Part shown: in pieces, positions 55,893-63,141 of the stretch
Layout: each line of letters starts with the position of its first letter
Position numbering within the stretch: position 1 is the first letter of the stretch
Origin: Allobosea sp. WAO
GTDB taxonomy: Bacteria > Pseudomonadota > Alphaproteobacteria > Rhizobiales > Beijerinckiaceae
DNA: 64,000 bases
NCBI RefSeq assembly: GCF_001509835.1
Contig: NZ_JXTJ01000018.1
Coordinates: 124,001-188,000, forward strand
Direction of reading: 5' to 3'
Position numbers and translations under genes: made by a program
The notes under the pieces: generated by a model
What the model was told of the DNA's origin: nothing
Database searches by the model: none
What the model saw: only the letters and a program-made list of their open reading frames with translations

Positions 55893-56477
55893 CTAGCGCA
55901 GGCCGTCCTCGCCCTTGACCTCTTCATGGGTCAGGCCGCCGACGCGCGGCAACGGGCGTCCGCCGCTGGTGAGGGCGACCGCGACGACGATCTCGCCGGC
56001 GCGCGGCGCGTCGGGGATGCTTACTTCCATGCCGTCGAAATGACTGCGGACATAGGCGCCGGCCTTGTGGCCGAGCGGCACGTCGAGCACCACGCCGAGC
56101 GAGCCACGCTTCTTCGAGGACGGGATCAGGGCCGGCGCCTTACCGAGCAGCTTGCGAAGCGGCGCGCCGAGCTTCGGATGCAGGATCGCAGCCGCATGCT
56201 CGTACTCGCCGTCCTCGCCGACGGCGGCTGCCTTGCCATAGCCCTGCACGGCCTCGCCCTCGATGCCGAGCGCCTTCAGCGCATGGCGGCCGAGCAGGTC
56301 GCCGAGCTCCTCGCCGATCTCGATCAGCTCGGAGAGATCGGGCTGGTACTTGCCGGCGAAGGGGTTCGCGATGACGGCCACCGCCGCCGCGCGGCGGATC
56401 GCCGGCGCGACCGGCTGGCCCATCTCGGAATGGGTCTCGTCGAGAATGGTGACGATCTTGCGGATGGAGGCCTTCAT
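55893..56477 (-). CDS. DUF1185 / amino-acid-synthesis family protein (copy 1)
   Basis: A 194-residue protein paralogous to the next gene. Shared marks are AVIANPFAGKYQPDLSELIE, AVQGYGKAAAVGEDGEYEHA, IPSSKKRGSLG and YVRSHFDGMEVSIPDAPRAG, ending in KGEDGLR. The family (PF06684) is called 'amino acid synthesis' but its reaction is unknown. Its ATG overlaps the stop of the second copy by 4 bp. It is the last gene of the operon led by the 6-hydroxynicotinate-reductase-like gene, so a role in the same catabolic process is inferred. Confidence 0.85.
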   Translation of the reverse strand: MKASIRKIVTILDETHSEMGQPVAPAIRRAAAVAVIANPFAGKYQPDLSELIEIGEELGDLLGRHALKALGIEGEAVQGYGKAAAVGEDGEYEHAAAILHPKLGAPLRKLLGKAPALIPSSKKRGSLGVVLDVPLGHKAGAYVRSHFDGMEVSIPDAPRAGEIVVAVALTSGGRPLPRVGGLTHEEVKGEDGLR

Positions 56478-57064
56478 CTCAGCCCGTCCTCGCCCTTGAT
56501 CTCGCTCGCCTTCAGGCCGCCGACGCGGGCATGGATGCGCGAGCCCGTCGTCATCACCAGGGCGAACAGCAGCTCGTCGGCCTTGGGCGCATCGGTGACC
56601 CCGACCTCGAAGGCGTCGAAATGGCTGCGGACATAGGAAGCGTTGACATGGGTGACCGGGATATCGAGGCGCGTGCCGGGGCCGCCGACCTTCTTGGTCG
56701 AGGGCACGATCGCCTTGGCGTCACCCAGCAGCTCGCGCATGGCGTAGCCGCCCGGCACATGCCAGAGCGCGCCATGCTCGAGCTCGCCGGCGGCGCCGAC
56801 GATGGCGCCCTTGCCATAGCCCTGGATCGCCTTCACATCGCCGCCCATCGCTGCGAGCAGGCGCTGCGCCATGGCGAGGCCGAGCGGCTTCAGGTCTTCC
56901 ATGAAGCCCTGGATGTCCTCGACATAGCGGCCGGCAAAGGGGTTTGCGATCACGGCGACCGCAGCGCCGCGCTTCAGCGGCGTGGCGACGGCCGGGCCGC
57001 CCTCGTGAAAGATCTCTTCCACGGTCACAGAATACTTTCGCACGGCGATCTCAGGCACGGGCAA
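56474..57064 (-). CDS. DUF1185 / amino-acid-synthesis family protein (copy 2)
   Basis: A 196-residue paralogue: AVIANPFAGRYVEDIQGFME, AIQGYGKGAIVGAAGELEHG, VPSTKKVGGPGTRLDIPVTH, SHFDAFEVGVTDAPKADE, ending EIKGEDGLR. Identity with copy 1 looks like roughly half by eye, concentrated in these blocks. The two probably form a heteromer or act on related substrates. Its start overlaps the UPF0280 stop by 14 bp and its stop overlaps copy 1 by 4 bp, so translation is coupled. Confidence 0.85.
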   Translation of the reverse strand: MPVPEIAVRKYSVTVEEIFHEGGPAVATPLKRGAAVAVIANPFAGRYVEDIQGFMEDLKPLGLAMAQRLLAAMGGDVKAIQGYGKGAIVGAAGELEHGALWHVPGGYAMRELLGDAKAIVPSTKKVGGPGTRLDIPVTHVNASYVRSHFDAFEVGVTDAPKADELLFALVMTTGSRIHARVGGLKASEIKGEDGLR

Positions 57065-57938
57065 GTCTCCTCTCGGCTTGTTCTTGAAGGATCATAGGCG
57101 TGGCCAGGGTTTTGCTCACGCCCTGAAGATGCATGGCGGCCGCGACGATCAGGCCTGCCTCTCGCAGGCGCTTTGCCTCGGCGAGGCCGCCGGCGAGCGC
57201 CGTCGCGATCTCGGCCTCGGTCAGCGGCCCGACATTGCGGGTAACGAGGCGCGTGCCGAGATCGCTGTCGGCCTGGATCGCCTCGGCCGGCAGGCGCTCG
57301 ATCGCCGGGTGGCCCGGCAGGTCGATCGCGTTGGCGATCACGGTCGCCGCCGCATCCGCCATGGCTGCGGTCGGGGCGAGCACCGTCACCGCCTCGGCGA
57401 TGCCCAGCGAGAAGCTGCGGCCGGGATAGCCGGAGGTCGCGATGCCGCGCACCGGATCGGCCGCGGCGATGCTGGCGGTGGCGAAGAGATTTGGCCGGTC
57501 CGGCCGCTCGACCAGGCCGATCCGGAAGATCTCGCCTTCAGCCAGATGGAGGGCGATGTCGCCGCCATTATTGGCATAGGCGCGCGTCAGCGGCGCGACC
57601 TCTACCATCACCCCGAGGATCTCCTGCGCGACCGAGCCTGCGACCGCTGCCATCGGCGTGATGAAGGTCGCGGCGGCGAAGGGGGTGACCGCCTGATGCA
57701 TGCGCCGGGCGACGGGGCCTTCCGGCACCGGGCCGTTTGCCCGCACCGGCGAGCGCAGCAGGGCAAGTTCGCCGCAGAGTTCGGCGAGCAGCCCGTCGAA
57801 GCGCCGCATCGCCGCCTGATAGGCCGCCTCGACCGCCGTCGCCGGGCCGGTGGCTTCGACGACGAGATCGATCGGCCCCTGCTGCAGCAGCAGGCGCTTG
57901 CCATCCGGTAACAGGCGCGCGGTCGGGGCCTCGAACAT
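57051..57938 (-). CDS. UPF0280 family protein (ApbE-related)
   Basis: A 295-residue protein of the UPF0280 family, distantly related to ApbE flavin transferases. VTPFAAATFITPMAAVAGSV, ANNGGDIALHLAEGEIFRIG and GIATSGYPGRSFSLGIAEAV match the family; the NNGGD and GIATSGYPGRS loops correspond to ApbE nucleotide-binding motifs. It could attach or handle a flavin for the adjacent iron-sulfur reductase, an inference. It is 3 bp downstream of that gene and overlaps the next gene by 14 bp. Confidence 0.82.
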   Translation of the reverse strand: MFEAPTARLLPDGKRLLLQQGPIDLVVEATGPATAVEAAYQAAMRRFDGLLAELCGELALLRSPVRANGPVPEGPVARRMHQAVTPFAAATFITPMAAVAGSVAQEILGVMVEVAPLTRAYANNGGDIALHLAEGEIFRIGLVERPDRPNLFATASIAAADPVRGIATSGYPGRSFSLGIAEAVTVLAPTAAMADAAATVIANAIDLPGHPAIERLPAEAIQADSDLGTRLVTRNVGPLTEAEIATALAGGLAEAKRLREAGLIVAAAMHLQGVSKTLATPMILQEQAERRLARA

Positions 57939-57941
57939 CGC

Positions 57942-59426
57942 TCAGCCGTGCGAGCGGCGCATCCGCTCCGGCGCCAGCGGCCAGGGATTGTCGAGCCGCT
58001 GCGGCAACTTCAGCCTGCCGTCGGCATTGAGCTCGGAGAGCGGCCGGACATAGTCCATATGCCCGCCGAGTTCCTGATAGTCAGAGAGCTTCATGGTGAA
58101 CTCGAGCGGCGCGACCAGGGCCGGCGTCGGCACATAGCCGAAAGCGTTCTCGGGCAGGCGGGTGACGTCGACCATGAAGGTGATGCCGCCGCCCGGCCAG
58201 ATATAGACCGGGGCGCCGCCGCAGGTGACATAGGTCAGCGCGTCCTTGACCGAGCGCGTCAGCCTGACCGGGTTTTCGGTGACGCCGGCGCGCAGCGAGC
58301 CGCCGGCGCCGCCGATGAACAGCACGGTCGAGAGAGCGGGCTCGCAATTCTCGGCGATGCGTTCGACCGGCTCGACCAGCCGCTCCGGCATCTGCATCTC
58401 GACAGGCACGAGGTTCTCGTCGAGCTCGTAATAGGCGGCGTGCTCGCCGGTCGTGGAGACCATCAGCATGCGCAGGCCGCGATAAGCGACTTTCGGATCG
58501 AACGGCCCGAGGATGGTCAGGGGGTCGCTGATATTGGTGCCGCCCCAGCCGGTGCCGGGCTGCGCGACCTGGAAATACCGGCCGGGCGTCGAGCGCCGTC
58601 CCTTCATCTTCAGGCCGGTCGCCGGCATGCCGAGCAGCTTGCCGGCCTGGTGTTCCGAGAGCACGCCGGTGATGTGGTCGTCGACGACGACGACCTCGTC
58701 GACCTTGCCATGCCATTGCTTGGCGAAGATGCCGATGGTCGCCGAGCCGCAGCCGACGCGCATCCGGCTTTCCTCGACGCCGTTGACGATCGGCGGCTTG
58801 CCGGCCTGGACGATGACGGTCTCGCCGCCATCGATCGTGAGCTCGACCGCCTTGCCGTTGCTGAGCGAGAGCAGCGTGTCACAGGTGACGCGGCCCTCCT
58901 TCTTCGAGCCGCCGGTGAGATGGTGGACACCGCCGAGCGACAGCATCTGCGAGCCGTATTCGCCGGAGGTGACATGGCCGACCGCCTCGCCCTCGACGCG
59001 CACGATCGCGGTCTCCGGGCCGAGGAAGCGGTCGGTGTCGATCTTCACCTTGACGCCGCAATAGCTGAAGATGCCCTCGGTCACGACGGTGACCATGTCG
59101 ACGCCATCGACCTCGGAGGAGACGATGAAGGGCGCGGGCTTGTAGTCGGGATAGGTCGTTCCGGCGCCGATCGCGGTCACGAAGGTGCCGGGCTGGTGCA
59201 GGATGTCGCCATCCCATTCGCGTGGGCCGGCGAAGGAGACGAGCTCGCCGCCCTGGTCGATCACGCGGTCGAGCACGACATGCGGGTCGACCCGCACCAG
59301 ATTGCCGTCGACATTGCCATAGCGGTCGCAGGCGCCGACTGCGCCCGGCTTGATAAAGCACATGACCGGACAGGCATCGCAGCGGATCTTGTCGTCGGCG
59401 GTCGCGGTTGCTTCCCCCAGGCTCAT
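57942..59426 (-). CDS. 6-hydroxynicotinate reductase-like iron-sulfur protein
   Basis: A 494-residue protein beginning with a four-cysteine cluster C18-x2-C21-x3-C25-x9-C35 (CDACPVMCFIKPGAVGAC), suited to a [4Fe-4S] centre. Other marks are GEYGSQMLSLGGVHHLTGGS, MRVGCGSATIGIFAKQWHG and CGGAPVYIWPGGGITFMVD. It resembles proteins annotated as 6-hydroxynicotinate reductase, which reduces the pyridine ring in nicotinate breakdown. Enamidase and later enzymes are absent here, so the substrate is uncertain. ATG 59426 has GAGGG upstream; TTG 59432 is also possible. It leads a four-gene operon controlled by a palindromic operator 30 bp upstream. Confidence 0.7.
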   Translation of the reverse strand: MSLGEATATADDKIRCDACPVMCFIKPGAVGACDRYGNVDGNLVRVDPHVVLDRVIDQGGELVSFAGPREWDGDILHQPGTFVTAIGAGTTYPDYKPAPFIVSSEVDGVDMVTVVTEGIFSYCGVKVKIDTDRFLGPETAIVRVEGEAVGHVTSGEYGSQMLSLGGVHHLTGGSKKEGRVTCDTLLSLSNGKAVELTIDGGETVIVQAGKPPIVNGVEESRMRVGCGSATIGIFAKQWHGKVDEVVVVDDHITGVLSEHQAGKLLGMPATGLKMKGRRSTPGRYFQVAQPGTGWGGTNISDPLTILGPFDPKVAYRGLRMLMVSTTGEHAAYYELDENLVPVEMQMPERLVEPVERIAENCEPALSTVLFIGGAGGSLRAGVTENPVRLTRSVKDALTYVTCGGAPVYIWPGGGITFMVDVTRLPENAFGYVPTPALVAPLEFTMKLSDYQELGGHMDYVRPLSELNADGRLKLPQRLDNPWPLAPERMRRSHG

Positions 59427-59455
59427 CGTCAACCCTCGCCGTCAGAAGCGGCTAA

Positions 59456-59473
59456 TCATTTGTACACAAATGA
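59456..59473. promoter_or_regulatory. Operator 1 (reductase-like operon)
   Basis: TCATTTGT-AC-ACAAATGA, 8-bp perfect arms, 29 bp upstream of the reductase-like start and downstream of a minus-strand TTGACA. The core ATTTGTACACAAAT matches the second operator ATTCGTATACAAAT at 12 of 14 bases. The TTGTNNACAA shape suits a MarR or GntR dimer. Confidence 0.65.
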
Positions 59474-59664: not shown

Positions 59665-59694
59665 TTGACAGCCGGAAAAATCGACTGTTATTAT
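59665..59694 (+). promoter_or_regulatory. Promoter of the nadC-like/phnN-phosphorylase operon
   Basis: TTGACA (59665-59670), 18-bp spacer, TATTAT (59689-59694). Both boxes are near consensus; the -10 overlaps operator 2, so a bound repressor would exclude RNA polymerase. Confidence 0.65.
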
Positions 59695-59708
59695 TCGTAT
59701 ACAAATAA
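59691..59708. promoter_or_regulatory. Operator 2 (nadC-like operon)
   Basis: TTATTCGTATACAAATAA, an 18-bp palindrome with one mismatched pair, overlapping the -10 box. Very similar to operator 1 on the other side of the spacer, implying joint control of both operons. The nearby MarR-family gene (62683-63141) is the obvious candidate regulator. Confidence 0.65.
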
Positions 59709-59780
59709 AATTTCGCTCGGGTTGGCGCGCCGATTCCGGGGAAAAGGCTCAAGGCGATCAGCGCCCGAGGAGGGGTTTCG

Positions 59781-60614
59781 ATGTACGACAGCTTTGCGAC
59801 GGATCGCCTGATCGATCTCTGGCTGACCGAGGATATCGGCGCCTGCGACCTGACCGTGCAGGTCATGATCGAGCCTGACGAGGTCGGCAAGTTCAACATG
59901 AATGCGCGCGAGCCGATGATCGTCTCCGGCATCGAGGTCGCCGCCCGCGTCTTCAAGCGCTACGATCCCGAGCTCAAGGTGAAGCTGCTCGTCAAGGACG
60001 GCGACAAGGTCGAGAAGGGCGCGATCCTGATCGAGGTCGAGGGCGCAGCCCGCAGCGTGCTGACCGCCGAGCGGACCGCGCTCAACATCGCCCAGCGCCT
60101 GTCCGGCATCGCCAACGAGACCGCCCGCTATGTCGCGGCGATCGCCGGCACCAAGGCCCGTCTGATCGACACGCGCAAGACCACGCCCGGCCTGCGCATG
60201 ATGGAGAAGCACGCCGTGACCTGCGGCGGTGGCCTCAACCATCGCCTCGGTCTCGATAACGGCGTGATGATCAAGGACAACCACATCGCCGTTTGCGGCA
60301 GCATCGGCGCCGCCGTCGAGCGCGCCCGCAAGAAGCTGCCGGTGCTGACCAAGCTCGAGGTCGAATGCGACCGGCTCGAGCAGGTCGAGGAGGCCGTCAA
60401 GGCCGGCGCCGACGTGATCATGCTCGACAACATGTCGGTCGCCGACATGACGCAGGCCGTCAAGCTGATCGCCGGCCGCGCCAAGGTCGAGGCTTCCGGC
60501 GGCATCCGCATCGACACGATCGGCCCGATCGCCCAGACCGGCGTCGACTATATCTCGACCAGCAAGATCACCCAGTCGGCACCCGCCGTCGACATCGGCC
60601 TCGACGAAGCCTGA
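59781..60614 (+). CDS. NadC-like quinolinate (nicotinate-nucleotide) phosphoribosyltransferase
   Basis: A 277-residue type II phosphoribosyltransferase. [61 protein letters not shown] and [12 protein letters not shown] are the quinolinate-phosphoribosyltransferase signature and PRPP/carboxylate-binding residues, all intact. The N-terminal [13 protein letters not shown] has Cys where most NadC have Gly (EDIGxGDIT). No nadA/nadB is nearby, so this may be a specialised paralogue. It would use PRPP with quinolinate or a related pyridine carboxylate to give a mononucleotide. The start has GAGGAGGGG upstream. It is followed 7 bp later by the PhnN/phosphorylase fusion. Confidence 0.88.
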
Positions 60615-60621
60615 TCGGACC

Positions 60622-62664
60622 ATGCGCCCGGGAACATTCTTCTTTGTCGTCGGCCCCAGCGGCGGCGGCAAGGATACCCTGATCGACGGCGCCAGGACGG
60701 TCCTGGAGCCGACCGGGCGCTATGTCTTCGCAAGGCGCGTCATCACCCGCCCCGCCGGCTCGGCCGGCGAGGCGCATGAGGCGGCAAGCGAGGCGGAGTT
60801 CGCGGCGCGCGAGGCCGCCGGCGACTTCCTGATCAGCTGGGGCGCCCATGGCCTGCGCTATGGCCTGCCCCGCGCCTTGCTGAGCGCGATCGAGAGCGGC
60901 CGCCACGTCATCGCCAATGGCTCGCGCGCCGTCATCGCCGAACTCGCGGCGCTCCTGCCGCGCTTCGTCATCGTCGATGTCACGGCCCCCGCGGAAATCC
61001 TGGCCGGCCGCATCGCCGGGCGCGGCCGCGAGCAGGGCAGCGCCATCGAGAACCGGCTCGCCCGCAAGGTCGAGCCCTGGCCGGTCGGCATCCGCACGGC
61101 CACTGTCTGCAACGATCAGAGCCCGGAAACCGGGATCGAGCGCTTCATCGCCGCGGTGGAATCGGCCGCCAATACCTTGCGCCTGCGCCGCCTGCCGGTT
61201 TTCGCCGGCCGGGCCCATTGCGCCTGGCTCCCGGCCAAGGGCGAGGTCGTCAACGGTTTCGACTATCTCGGGCCGGGCAGGATCGAGATCTCTGGTGCCG
61301 GTGCCAGCATCCGCTCGGACATCCAGGTTGCGGACCTTCCTGCCGCGCTCGCGCCCGACGAGATCGGCCTTTCCAGCGAGGCCTTCGCCGAGCTCGGCCT
61401 GCCTGAAGGCACCGAGGTCTCGATCCGGCGCACGCCCTCGCCGGAAAGCCGCGCCGCGCTGACCCGCAAGATCCAGGGCGGGGCGCTTTCGGAGGCGCAG
61501 TATCACACGCTGATCCGCGACATCGTCGAATCCCGCTACCCCGATGGCGAGGTCGCGGCCTTCCTCGTCGCGGCGACGCAGAAGCTCAGCGATGACGAGG
61601 TCGTTTCGCTTGCCCGCGTCCGCACCCGTTTCGCCCAGCAGATCAGCTGGTCCGACAAGATCGTCGTCGACAAGCATTCGATGGGCGGGATTCCCGGCAG
61701 CCGGATCACGCTGATCGTGGTGCCGATCGTCGCCGCCCATGGCGCCTTCCTGATGCCGAAGACCTCGTCGCGCGCCATCACCTCGGCGGCAGGCACGGCC
61801 GACGCGATGGAGGCGCTCGCCGATGTCGAGCTCACGCCGGCGGAACTGCGCGCCTGCGTCGAGGAGGCCCGTGCCTGCATCGCCTGGAACGGCCGCCTGA
61901 ACCATTCCGTCGTCGACGACGTGATGAACGCGATCACGCGGCCGCTCGGCATCGATTCCAATCGCTGGTCCGTGGCCTCGATCCTGTCGAAGAAGAAGAC
62001 CGCCGGTTCGACCCATGTGATCGTCGACCTGCCCTATGGCCCGCGCGCCAAGCTGAAATCGCAGGAAGAAGCGGCCGATCTCGCCGCGCTGTTCGAGACG
62101 GTCGGGCGCGGGCTCGGTCTTGTCGTCGAGGCCTTCCCGACCGATGGCACCAGGCCGATCGGACGCGGCATCGGGCCGGCACTGGAATGCCGCGACGTCG
62201 CCTGGGCGCTCGACAACGATCCGCAGGCGCCGGCCGACCTCGTCGCCAAGGCGCTGTTCTTCGCCGGCCGTATCCTGGCCTGGGACCCGGCGCTGGGCTC
62301 GGTCGAGGCCGGACGGGCGCGAGCCGAGGAATTGCTGCGCTCCGGCGCCGCGCGCACCGCCTTCGAGCGCATCGTCGACGCACAGGGGCGCCGCAACCCG
62401 CCCGTCATGCCGGGGTTGCTCGTCCATACGGTGCGGGCCGAGACGGCGGGCACGGTCGCCGAGATCGACGGCTGGGCCGTCGCCGGGATTGCCCGGCGCG
62501 CCGGTGCGCCTTTCGACAAGGCGGCGGGAATCGATCTGCGCCGCGGCGTCGGCGACAGCGTCGCTGTCGGCGATCCGCTCTTCGCGATCCATGCCAGCGC
62601 CTCGAGCGATCTCGAGGAGGCGCGGGCGCTGGCGGCGGAGAGCGCCTGCTTCGTGATCAGATAG
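60622..62664 (+). CDS. Fusion: ribose-1,5-bisphosphokinase (PhnN) + AMP/thymidine phosphorylase
   Basis: A 680-residue bifunctional protein. Residues about 5-183 are PhnN: Walker [11 protein letters not shown] (11-20), RRVITRPAG, and a [14 protein letters not shown] substrate region; PhnN phosphorylates ribose 1,5-bisphosphate to PRPP. Residues about 187-680 are a thymidine/AMP phosphorylase of the archaeal AMPpase-like branch: an N-terminal beta domain, [20 protein letters not shown] (about 348-367), [20 protein letters not shown] and a C-terminal barrel-sandwich domain. If it acts on nucleotides, the phosphorylase would release ribose 1,5-bisphosphate, the PhnN substrate. The upstream NadC-like enzyme consumes PRPP. 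No other phosphonate (phn) gene is nearby. Nucleoside rather than nucleotide specificity is the main alternative. Confidence 0.88.
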
Positions 62665-62682: not shown

Positions 62683-63141
62683 TCAGCGCAGCTGCTTCAG
62701 GAGCGAGATCAGTGTGGTGCGCTGGCTGGTCGCCAGCGGCGCCAGCGTCACCTTGGTGACGGTCTCGGCCTTCGGCATCAATTCGCGCGTATAGGCGCGG
62801 CCGACCTCGGTCAGCTGCACGATGACGCGGCGCCCGTCGTCGGGGTCGGCGGTGGTGTGCACCAGCTTGCGCTTGATCAGCCGGTCGACCACGCCCTTGA
62901 TCGTCGCCGCATCCATCGCGGTCTGGCGCCCGAGCAGGTTCTGCGAGCTGCCGCCTTCGAGATAGAGCCGCGACAGCACCGCCCACTGCGTCGGTGTCAG
63001 CTCCGGCCCCATGATCTCGTTGAACAGCGAGACATGGCGCTGGATTGCCTGGCGCAGGATGAAGCCGACCTGTTCGGAGAGGTCGTAGCTCTCCGCTTCA
63101 GGCTCGGCCGTGATGGCGTGGGAAGACTCGGACCCCGACAT
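62683..63141 (-). CDS. MarR-family transcriptional regulator
   Basis: A 152-residue MarR regulator. ELTPTQWAVLSRLYLEGGSS is helix alpha2, GRQTAMDAATIKGVVDRLIK the recognition helix and DPDDGRRVIVQLTEVGRAY the wing. Nicotinate-catabolism regulators of the NicR/BpsR type are also MarR proteins that sense 6-hydroxynicotinate; that parallel fits the reductase-like gene nearby but is inference. It is convergent with the PhnN-phosphorylase gene (19-bp gap) and has AAGGGG before its ATG. It is the best candidate to bind the paired operators at 59456 and 59691. Confidence 0.88.
   Translation of the reverse strand: MSGSESSHAITAEPEAESYDLSEQVGFILRQAIQRHVSLFNEIMGPELTPTQWAVLSRLYLEGGSSQNLLGRQTAMDAATIKGVVDRLIKRKLVHTTADPDDGRRVIVQLTEVGRAYTRELMPKAETVTKVTLAPLATSQRTTLISLLKQLR

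Follow-up and report, generated by a model that had tools for sequence, protein, structure and literature searches.

A reductive pathway of nicotinate degradation is known from Eubacterium barkeri and Azorhizobium caulinodans, and the 6-hydroxynicotinate reductase (Hnr) of E. barkeri is an enzyme with iron–sulfur clusters and a covalently bound flavin. The Hnr of Bradyrhizobiaceae strain SG-6C has been reported to be 42% identical to the E. barkeri protein, and the SG-6C description (PMC3511419) presents a cluster of hydroxylase, Hnr, enamidase, and transporter genes. Here, an operon with an hnr-like gene is considered that lies in a 64,000-nucleotide stretch (hereafter, the window) of the 6.1-Mb genome of Allobosea sp. 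WAO, contig NZ_JXTJ01000018.1 (C10:124001-188000, where C, G, and L numbers denote our contigs, genomes, and loci). Together with Hnr, the operon encodes a UPF0280 protein and two DUF1185 paralogues, and it very probably provides the ring-reducing step of a reductive route of nicotinate degradation, the other genes of which are located 20–31 kb away. The pathway itself is ordinary and known, and it is the split arrangement that is unusual. The hydroxylase, Hnr, enamidase, and a transporter are common to the described systems and to this one; unlike them, the genes here are separated by about 20 kb, include two DUF1185 genes and an SsuABC-type transporter, and have an operator pattern that is common to hnr and a nadC–PhnN/phosphorylase module.

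The operon consists of the following genes (window coordinates):

57942-59426, minus strand: hnr, 6-hydroxynicotinate reductase-like iron–sulfur protein (494 amino acids; alternative start TTG at 59432).
57051-57938, minus strand: UPF0280 (COG2122) protein with an ApbE-like predicted fold (NCBIfam, AF2, VIA, co-occurrence).
56474-57064, minus strand: DUF1185-A (PF06684), likelier start GTG at 57058.
55893-56477, minus strand: DUF1185-B (PF06684), 48% identical to DUF1185-A.

The initial annotation had described four minus-strand open reading frames separated by a 3-bp gap and then overlapping by 14 and 4 bp, and all of this was confirmed. GTG 57058 is nevertheless the likelier start of DUF1185-A, since the protein then begins with MPE..VRK, like its relatives, and overlaps UPF0280 by 8 bp, as in annotated relatives (e.g., L033). 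The UPF0280 protein passes NCBIfam NF003322 (PRK04334) with 387 bits against a cut-off of 290, and the scores of the two DUF1185 proteins with PF06684, 244 and 234 bits, exceed the cut-off of 27. No Pfam or NCBIfam model scores above cut-off with Hnr, which takes its name from the annotation of its relatives.

Hnr is 64–71% identical to 26 plasmid homologues, many of which are annotated as 6-hydroxynicotinate reductase, and the closest named Hnr among the listed matches comes from Bosea (88%); the kinship to the E. barkeri enzyme runs only via homologues annotated as Hnr. It is present in a single copy, so that the genome has no second reductase of this family. Eight cysteines are conserved in total (counted over rows with a letter at the position): Cys16, 19, 23, and 33 in 90/90 rows, Cys226 and Cys361 in 92/92, and Cys123 and Cys182 in 91/92. 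The AF2 model of Hnr is poor (mean pLDDT 62, pTM 0.49); Foldseek found no match for it at E 0.001, VIA gave no Z of 5 or more, and sequence searches of the PDB yielded no significant match. As a side observation, residues 124–159 weakly resemble the GCV_T_C barrel (the C-terminal domain of glycine-cleavage T protein) in Pfam searches of 33 of 36 Hnr members (best E 0.0003); the resemblance is below the Pfam cut-off in the window's Hnr, with a VIA Z below 3.

An Hnr profile scan returned at least 594 relatives, and the best 80 of these were kept as genome loci, which lean to close relatives because they are the best matches of the scan. Among these best 80, hnr is immediately followed by UPF0280 in 74 of the 77 loci with 1 kb downstream (three have less), and the same holds for all 10 annotated plasmid loci examined from a total of 26 plasmid matches. 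The three exceptions have UPF0280 8 kb off (L053), on another contig beside a DUF1185 pair (L128), or as a copy with an internal stop (L091). In the 75 genome loci with 2.6 kb downstream (five have less), hnr is accompanied by both DUF1185 genes in 31 cases, by A only in 1, by B only in 39 (mostly Bradyrhizobium), and by neither in 4. Once the 25 loci lacking 8 kb on both sides are set aside, a molybdenum hydroxylase is found in 51 of the remaining 55, MarR in 51, enamidase in 40, ferredoxin–NADP reductase (FNR) in 31, and HyuA in 5. At the genome level, 297 genomes of the order were compared: hnr was found in 74 of them, spread over 33 of 123 genera and 23 families, and UPF0280 was found in 72, a count that leaves out a weak match in G072. 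Both genes are present in 71 genomes, hnr only in 3, UPF0280 only in 1, and neither in 222, and in the four discordant genomes the gene lies at a contig end; five of the 71 genomes carry hnr and UPF0280 at separate places. The view of the initial annotation that such tight coupling implies one process is supported by this conservation of the operon across many genera, while a chance gene order hnr–UPF0280 was rejected on the strength of locus conservation and genome-level co-occurrence; the Fisher values take no account of phylogeny.

The remaining pathway genes occupy about C10:203575-214041, i.e., 20–31 kb from the hnr start and 16–26 kb past the window end. They encode a NicAB-type molybdenum hydroxylase, an enamidase-like amidohydrolase, an FdxA-type ferredoxin, FNR, and an SsuABC/NMT1-type ATP-binding cassette (ABC) transporter; two features need their coordinates here:

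C10, about 203575-207701: nicA/nicB, molybdenum hydroxylase (NicB pieces match NicB of relatives at 52–57%; three CxxCH in nicB).
L047:1867-3063: enamidase-like amidohydrolase (Amidohydro_3/1).

The enamidase-like protein is 70–73% identical to amidohydrolases of three plasmid hnr clusters (two from Sulfitobacter, with 73%, and one from Comamonadaceae), and the FdxA-type ferredoxin and FNR genes adjoining it encode candidate electron donors. Judging by similarity, the predicted set in this genome comprises a molybdenum hydroxylase, an enamidase-type amidohydrolase, and a single Hnr with electron-donor genes. In Bosea sp. CS1GBMeth4 (L051), the hydroxylase and enamidase are contiguous with hnr: within about 15 kb, marR, PhnN-phosphorylase, nadC, hnr, UPF0280, DUF1185-A, and DUF1185-B are followed by nicB, nicA, enamidase, ferredoxin, and FNR, an SsuABC transporter not being seen in this stretch. 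The genome of Allobosea sp. WAO has much the same gene set, but split by about 20 kb. The initial annotation noted that no nicotinate hydroxylase or enamidase is nearby, and this holds only inside the window, as both are encoded on the same contig 20–26 kb from hnr.

The second line of evidence is an operator pattern, for which the relevant features are:

59458-59471: hnr operator, ATTTGTACACAAAT, located 32 bp before the ATG of hnr.
59693-59706: the same pattern before nadC, ATTCGTATACAAAT.
62683-63141, minus strand: MarR regulator, a BpsR relative, 45–54% to MarR genes of relatives' hnr clusters.

The 14-bp pattern RTTYGTNTACRAAY occurs exactly at six places in the genome. Five fall within 31 kb, namely one each ahead of hnr, ahead of nadC, and in the interval from enamidase to ferredoxin, and two ahead of the transporter; the sixth is on contig C9. 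Only these exact sites were relied on; the control counts refer to searches with up to one mismatch, which gave 13/12 matches against 8/10 in a reversed control. A narrower search string, CATTTGTNNACAAATG, is found at two places in the genome with no more than one mismatch. In relatives, a site with up to three mismatches to ATTTGTATACAAAT precedes hnr in 56 of 87 loci, where base shuffles would predict 0.2 (three of the 90 loci were set aside, their upstream stretch being shorter than 400 bp), and the exact pattern lies between nadC and hnr in L051; it was not found before nadC in L097 or L229. According to PMC6837509, BpsR of Bordetella is a MarR-family sensor with 6-hydroxynicotinate as its ligand. 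The window's MarR aligns to 6PCO and 6PCP (134 residues with 6PCP, taken as BpsR because Tyr15, His23, Arg26, and His32 fall at those chain positions) and keeps three of the four ligand contacts, Tyr15, Arg26, and His32; unlike BpsR, it has Phe27 in place of His23. This protein is a likely reader of the operator, and the common operator suggests a nicotinate regulon that would extend to nadC.

The pathway genes on the contig, the operator pattern, and the contiguity in the Bosea relative make 6-hydroxynicotinate the likely substrate of Hnr, and the gene content points very probably to nicotinate as what the pathway degrades. The suggestion of the initial annotation that the real substrate may be different is therefore unsupported, since the hydroxylase and enamidase are encoded on the same contig and the enamidase/ferredoxin promoter has the exact hnr operator pattern; likewise, the idea of an orphan substrate for Hnr was rejected in view of the pathway genes and the shared operator. 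The proposed check for hydroxylase and enamidase genes with the same operator thus succeeded for the enamidase/ferredoxin promoter and only weakly for nicA, where the site has one mismatch.

The proposal as a whole draws on gene content, linkage, operator pattern, co-occurrence, predicted fold, and conserved residues, from which we infer every reaction and substrate. The NicAB-type molybdenum hydroxylase would make 6-hydroxynicotinate, which is probably sensed by the MarR repressor of the BpsR kind, thereby freeing the common operator. Electrons would pass through FNR and ferredoxin to Hnr, which would convert 6-hydroxynicotinate to 1,4,5,6-tetrahydro-6-oxonicotinate, and the amidohydrolase would open the ring of this compound to yield 2-formylglutarate and ammonia. 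UPF0280 would serve specifically to mature Hnr, with insertion of its flavin by an altered ApbE-type site as the likeliest role. DUF1185-A/B would act when the ring is opened or later; their likeliest substrate is 2-formylglutarate, which they would tautomerise or decarboxylate to glutarate semialdehyde.

Several observations weigh against this scheme. An exact operator copy (C9:7126-7139, L228) precedes an operon for an ABC transporter of the dipeptide type, for which the pathway offers no explanation, and the nicA site is weak evidence, because the one-mismatch search hardly exceeds its control. The molybdenum hydroxylase and transporter types vary between loci, so that substrates may vary as well. 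The sole UPF0280 gene of the L091 genome (G299 C119:21624-22460) is broken by one TAG, being either a pseudogene or a sequencing error. Finally, PF06684 is found in 70 of the 74 hnr genomes, being absent from 4 (in G064 and G159, of one genus, hnr–UPF0280 occurs with no PF06684 match), and also in 31 genomes without hnr. Judging by the counts in the 297 genomes, UPF0280 appears to exist in the order for Hnr alone, and DUF1185 to have a wider role.

UPF0280 probably serves Hnr only, and its strict pairing with Hnr indicates that it is probably an Hnr maturation enzyme. Its AF2 model is of high quality (pLDDT 94), and VIA superimposes it on 2O34 with Z 19.6 (root-mean-square deviation 3.3 Å, 210 residues) and on ApbE/Ftp with Z 13.7–16.1 (3.3–3.8 Å over 204–218 residues), the next fold being urate oxidase (uricase; best Z 8.0). 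The best ApbE match in Foldseek has E 9.7e-5 and prob 1.00. In hhalign, UPF0280 matches a profile of 15 ApbE proteins, picked by motif from 23 loci, at 94.9% (E 4.8e-8) locally and 83.7% globally; GGD, ATSG, and ADAAAT with ADALST are paired, and the HIIDPRTG stretch is skipped. Ser169, Asp195, and Thr199 of UPF0280 are invariant in two alignments (33 and 35 proteins). The flavin transferases ApbE/Ftp (PF02424; reviewed in PMC12052999) thus have in common with UPF0280 the predicted fold, the Ser of ATSG, and the Asp and Thr of ADxxxT.

There are clear differences from ApbE, and they tell against flavin attachment. The catalytic triad of ApbE is Asp-Ser-His (PMC12052999), and it is not complete in UPF0280: Ser169 and Asp195 align, whereas the HIIDP segment with the catalytic His is deleted. 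PF02424 does not match UPF0280 up to E 0.1, and UPF0280 must not be called ApbE, as it fails this membership test. The canonical ApbE target motif D-x-x-[ST]-G-A-[ST], as given in PMC12052999, is not found in Hnr. GCGSAT, the nearest string, was rejected as a target: its last position is Ala in 3/92 and Ser in 1/92 rows, and there is no Asp at the first place of the motif. Moreover, the covalent flavin is one reportedly described for the Hnr of E. barkeri (Alhapel 2006), and for the window's Hnr it is an assumption. At the same time, the window's genome contains no PF02424 match at E 0.001, nor do 4 more of the 12 hnr genomes in the same draw; if the flavin of Hnr is covalent here, UPF0280 is the natural candidate for attaching it. 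Tentatively, UPF0280 may serve Hnr by flavin attachment, with odds a little below even.

That UPF0280 supports Hnr in another way, e.g., through iron–sulfur or persulfide chemistry as proposed for COG2122 in homocysteine synthesis, is a possibility we regard as rather doubtful. UPF0280 and COG2122 are presumably one and the same family, and to our knowledge its sole genetic role is that together with DUF39 and NIL/ferredoxin proteins, which counts in favor of such chemistry, as does the lack of the ApbE His segment. According to PMC5764234, Desulfovibrio vulgaris requires COG2122 along with DUF39 in order to make homocysteine; the paper leaves the chemistry open and combines a persulfide proposal with the view that the homology seemingly stops short of the ApbE flavin-binding region. 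The homocysteine protein of Desulfovibrio and Methanosarcina treated there belongs to the same family, and 2O34 (DVU1097), the structure nearest to UPF0280, is itself from Desulfovibrio; its partners in that system are DUF39 and NIL/ferredoxin proteins, whereas no such family appeared in Pfam scans of Hnr. The retained ApbE fold in the prediction, with the Ser-Asp-Thr of the ApbE site invariant, argues against a role without flavin, and the only eight conserved cysteines of Hnr suffice for two ordinary clusters without a special factor.

The DUF1185 proteins belong to the same family, PF06684, as BB2672 (3BYQ) and SPO0826 (2QTP), with A resembling the former and B the latter. Unlike those two, they form a paralogue pair with a split histidine pattern and are found with pyridine ring-opening genes. 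Mapping on BB2672 shows that both paralogues retain the Glu-Arg pairs and three of the histidines, apart from a single A row with Gln in place of one histidine. Across A, B, and eight distant members, these residues vary little or not at all. The fourth histidine, His174, is His in 45/45 A rows, whereas B rows have Leu (74/80), His (4), or Asn (2); in the window's own pair, which is outside these counts, A retains His174, and thus the four conserved histidines of BB2672, and B has Leu. Among solved structures, 2QTP is closest to DUF1185-B (258.7 bits) and likewise has this Leu. The tree groups the A rows with four of the single-copy relatives in one clade (100/99), and B rows do not form a single well-supported clade. 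DUF1185-B is found without A in 40 loci, all with Leu, so that B can work without A.

Two loci bear on the role of the pair. In Rhizobium rhizogenes OV677 (L155), a second DUF1185 pair stands directly beside an enamidase (59%), and in Kaistia (L156), the pair is 1.1 kb from an enamidase with one open reading frame between; neither stretch contains hnr or UPF0280. Since it goes with the ring-opening hydrolase apart from hnr, the DUF1185 pair probably functions at or after ring opening. The stretch L155:8354-10913 also has MarR (38%) and an isochorismatase-like open reading frame. TgnF of the trigonelline pathway is named as a homologue (PMC7913881), and in the vitamin B6 route succinic semialdehyde and CO2 arise from (E)-2-(acetamidomethylene)succinate (PMC3538738). 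Hydrolysis in such routes should release a 2-formyl-dicarboxylate, hence the proposal of 2-formylglutarate; that DUF1185 acts at ring opening or on this compound is conceivable, with somewhat more doubt than confidence. Unfavorable to it are eight plasmid DUF1185 loci, only three of which, L163, L170, and L168, fit a 2-formyl-dicarboxylate step well. L163 has an LLM monooxygenase, a flavin reductase, an alpha/beta hydrolase, and aldehyde dehydrogenases, whereas succinate-semialdehyde dehydrogenase is accompanied by an alpha/beta hydrolase in L170 and by an amidohydrolase and an FAD monooxygenase in L168. L164, with an alpha/beta hydrolase and an aldehyde dehydrogenase, is a partial fit; no fit is seen for L165 and L166, which have FAH and VOC proteins, or for L167, which has dehydrogenases, and L169 from Sinorhizobium, where DUF1185 is found with nucleoside hydrolases, isochorismatase, and a HyuA-type gene, is perhaps for nicotinamide riboside. 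A stimulation test of the relative HcdD failed as well (PMC7913881).

DUF1185-A/B could instead be a structural or regulatory pair, i.e., a hydrolase activator or a sensor of pH or salt, rather than an enzyme, which we hold to be fairly doubtful. An environmental-sensor role has been proposed (PMC2954203), and the loss of one cluster histidine from most DUF1185-B proteins points the same way; on the other side stand the 40 loci with B alone and the near invariance of the histidines and Glu-Arg pairs even in distant members, as expected for an active site at a dimer interface. PMC2954203 also gives genes of a branched-chain amino-acid-type ABC transporter as neighbours of SPO0826. Such transporters occur in many hnr clusters, where they belong to pyridine breakdown, so the family label “amino acid synthesis” may be misplaced.

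The ring opener itself varies. Among 65 loci with full flanks (55 genome, 10 plasmid), enamidase (at least 45% identity) is found in 44, HyuA (at least 55%) in 11, both in none, and neither in 10. The HyuAB loci are L034, L035, L037, L038, L040, L042, L121, L125, L126, L129, and L130, and L041 has enamidase plus a more distant HyuA (43%). Four of the five genomes behind the HyuA genome loci have no enamidase orthologue, and the fifth has one in a second locus. The HyuAB pair of L037, the sole pair scanned, has caprolactamase subunits as its nearest curated models, below cut-off. Given the mutual exclusion and this likeness, a lactam-opening HyuAB may replace the enamidase. It is very unlikely that Hnr and its operon act on another pyridine or lactam (isonicotinate, picolinate, or a hydroxylated ring derived from nicotine or from plant alkaloids), nicotinate then being the substrate of just one relative: two unlike molybdenum hydroxylase types, two ring openers, and several transporter types among hnr loci, and the NMT1/SsuA kind of transporter in the window's genome, would agree with this, whereas the three 6-hydroxynicotinate contacts kept in MarR, the operator pattern at nadC, and the presence of an Hnr homologue in the nicotinate cluster of SG-6C, shown to consume 6-hydroxynicotinate (PMC3511419), speak against it.

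Next to the operon, the nadC module consists of two genes:

59781-60614, plus strand: nadC, quinolinate phosphoribosyltransferase (TIGR00078, 327 bits, cut-off 198), a regulon member by its operator.
60622-62664, plus strand: fusion of PhnN (ribose 1,5-bisphosphokinase) with a domain of the thymidine/AMP-phosphorylase type, separated from nadC by 7 bp.

The fusion protein matches NF003338 (594 bits, cut-off 434) and TIGR02322 (169 bits, cut-off 156). The stretches considered for this module with transporters were window 59693-62664, L047:4660-8041, L051, L097, L229, L230, and L232. In all six examined loci with both domains in a row (the window, L051, L097, L229, L230, and L232), nadC is just upstream, and a lone phosphorylase on an Azospirillum plasmid is without nadC. 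In L232 (Paraburkholderia), the same SsuABC-type transporter follows the module (56–81% identity); part of SsuABC precedes nadC in L097, and L229 has a tripartite tricarboxylate transporter (TTT) binding protein and L230 a tripartite ATP-independent periplasmic (TRAP) transporter. Quinolinate is the ligand of two TTT binding proteins of Bordetella, Bug27 and Bug69, and in Variovorax a nadC-phnN-bug27 neighbourhood has been read as NAD synthesis (both from PMC11452294). The module in Allobosea has a phosphorylase and the nicotinate operator, hence a different hypothesis: it could turn quinolinate into nicotinate by a shunt that recycles phosphoribosyl pyrophosphate (PRPP). NadC would form nicotinate mononucleotide and CO2 from quinolinate, the phosphorylase would release nicotinate and ribose 1,5-bisphosphate, and PhnN would then restore PRPP.

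A stated function of the UPF0280 or DUF1185 families within this pathway was not found in the literature searched, subscription papers being outside the search. The near-perfect pairing of UPF0280 with Hnr provides a concrete partner and an assay for COG2122, on which homocysteine synthesis in a sulfate reducer also depends. We consider it rather unlikely that UPF0280/COG2122 is a second, His-less class of protein flavinylases (or a related redox-cofactor maturase) for cytosolic iron–sulfur reductases; its clients, on the same doubtful footing, would be Hnr when nicotinate is degraded and, for anaerobic homocysteine formation, either DUF39 or the ferredoxin partner of DUF39. If the His-less flavinylase reading is true, the pairing with Hnr, which is also found in genomes without detectable ApbE, would offer an aerobic, culturable system for COG2122.

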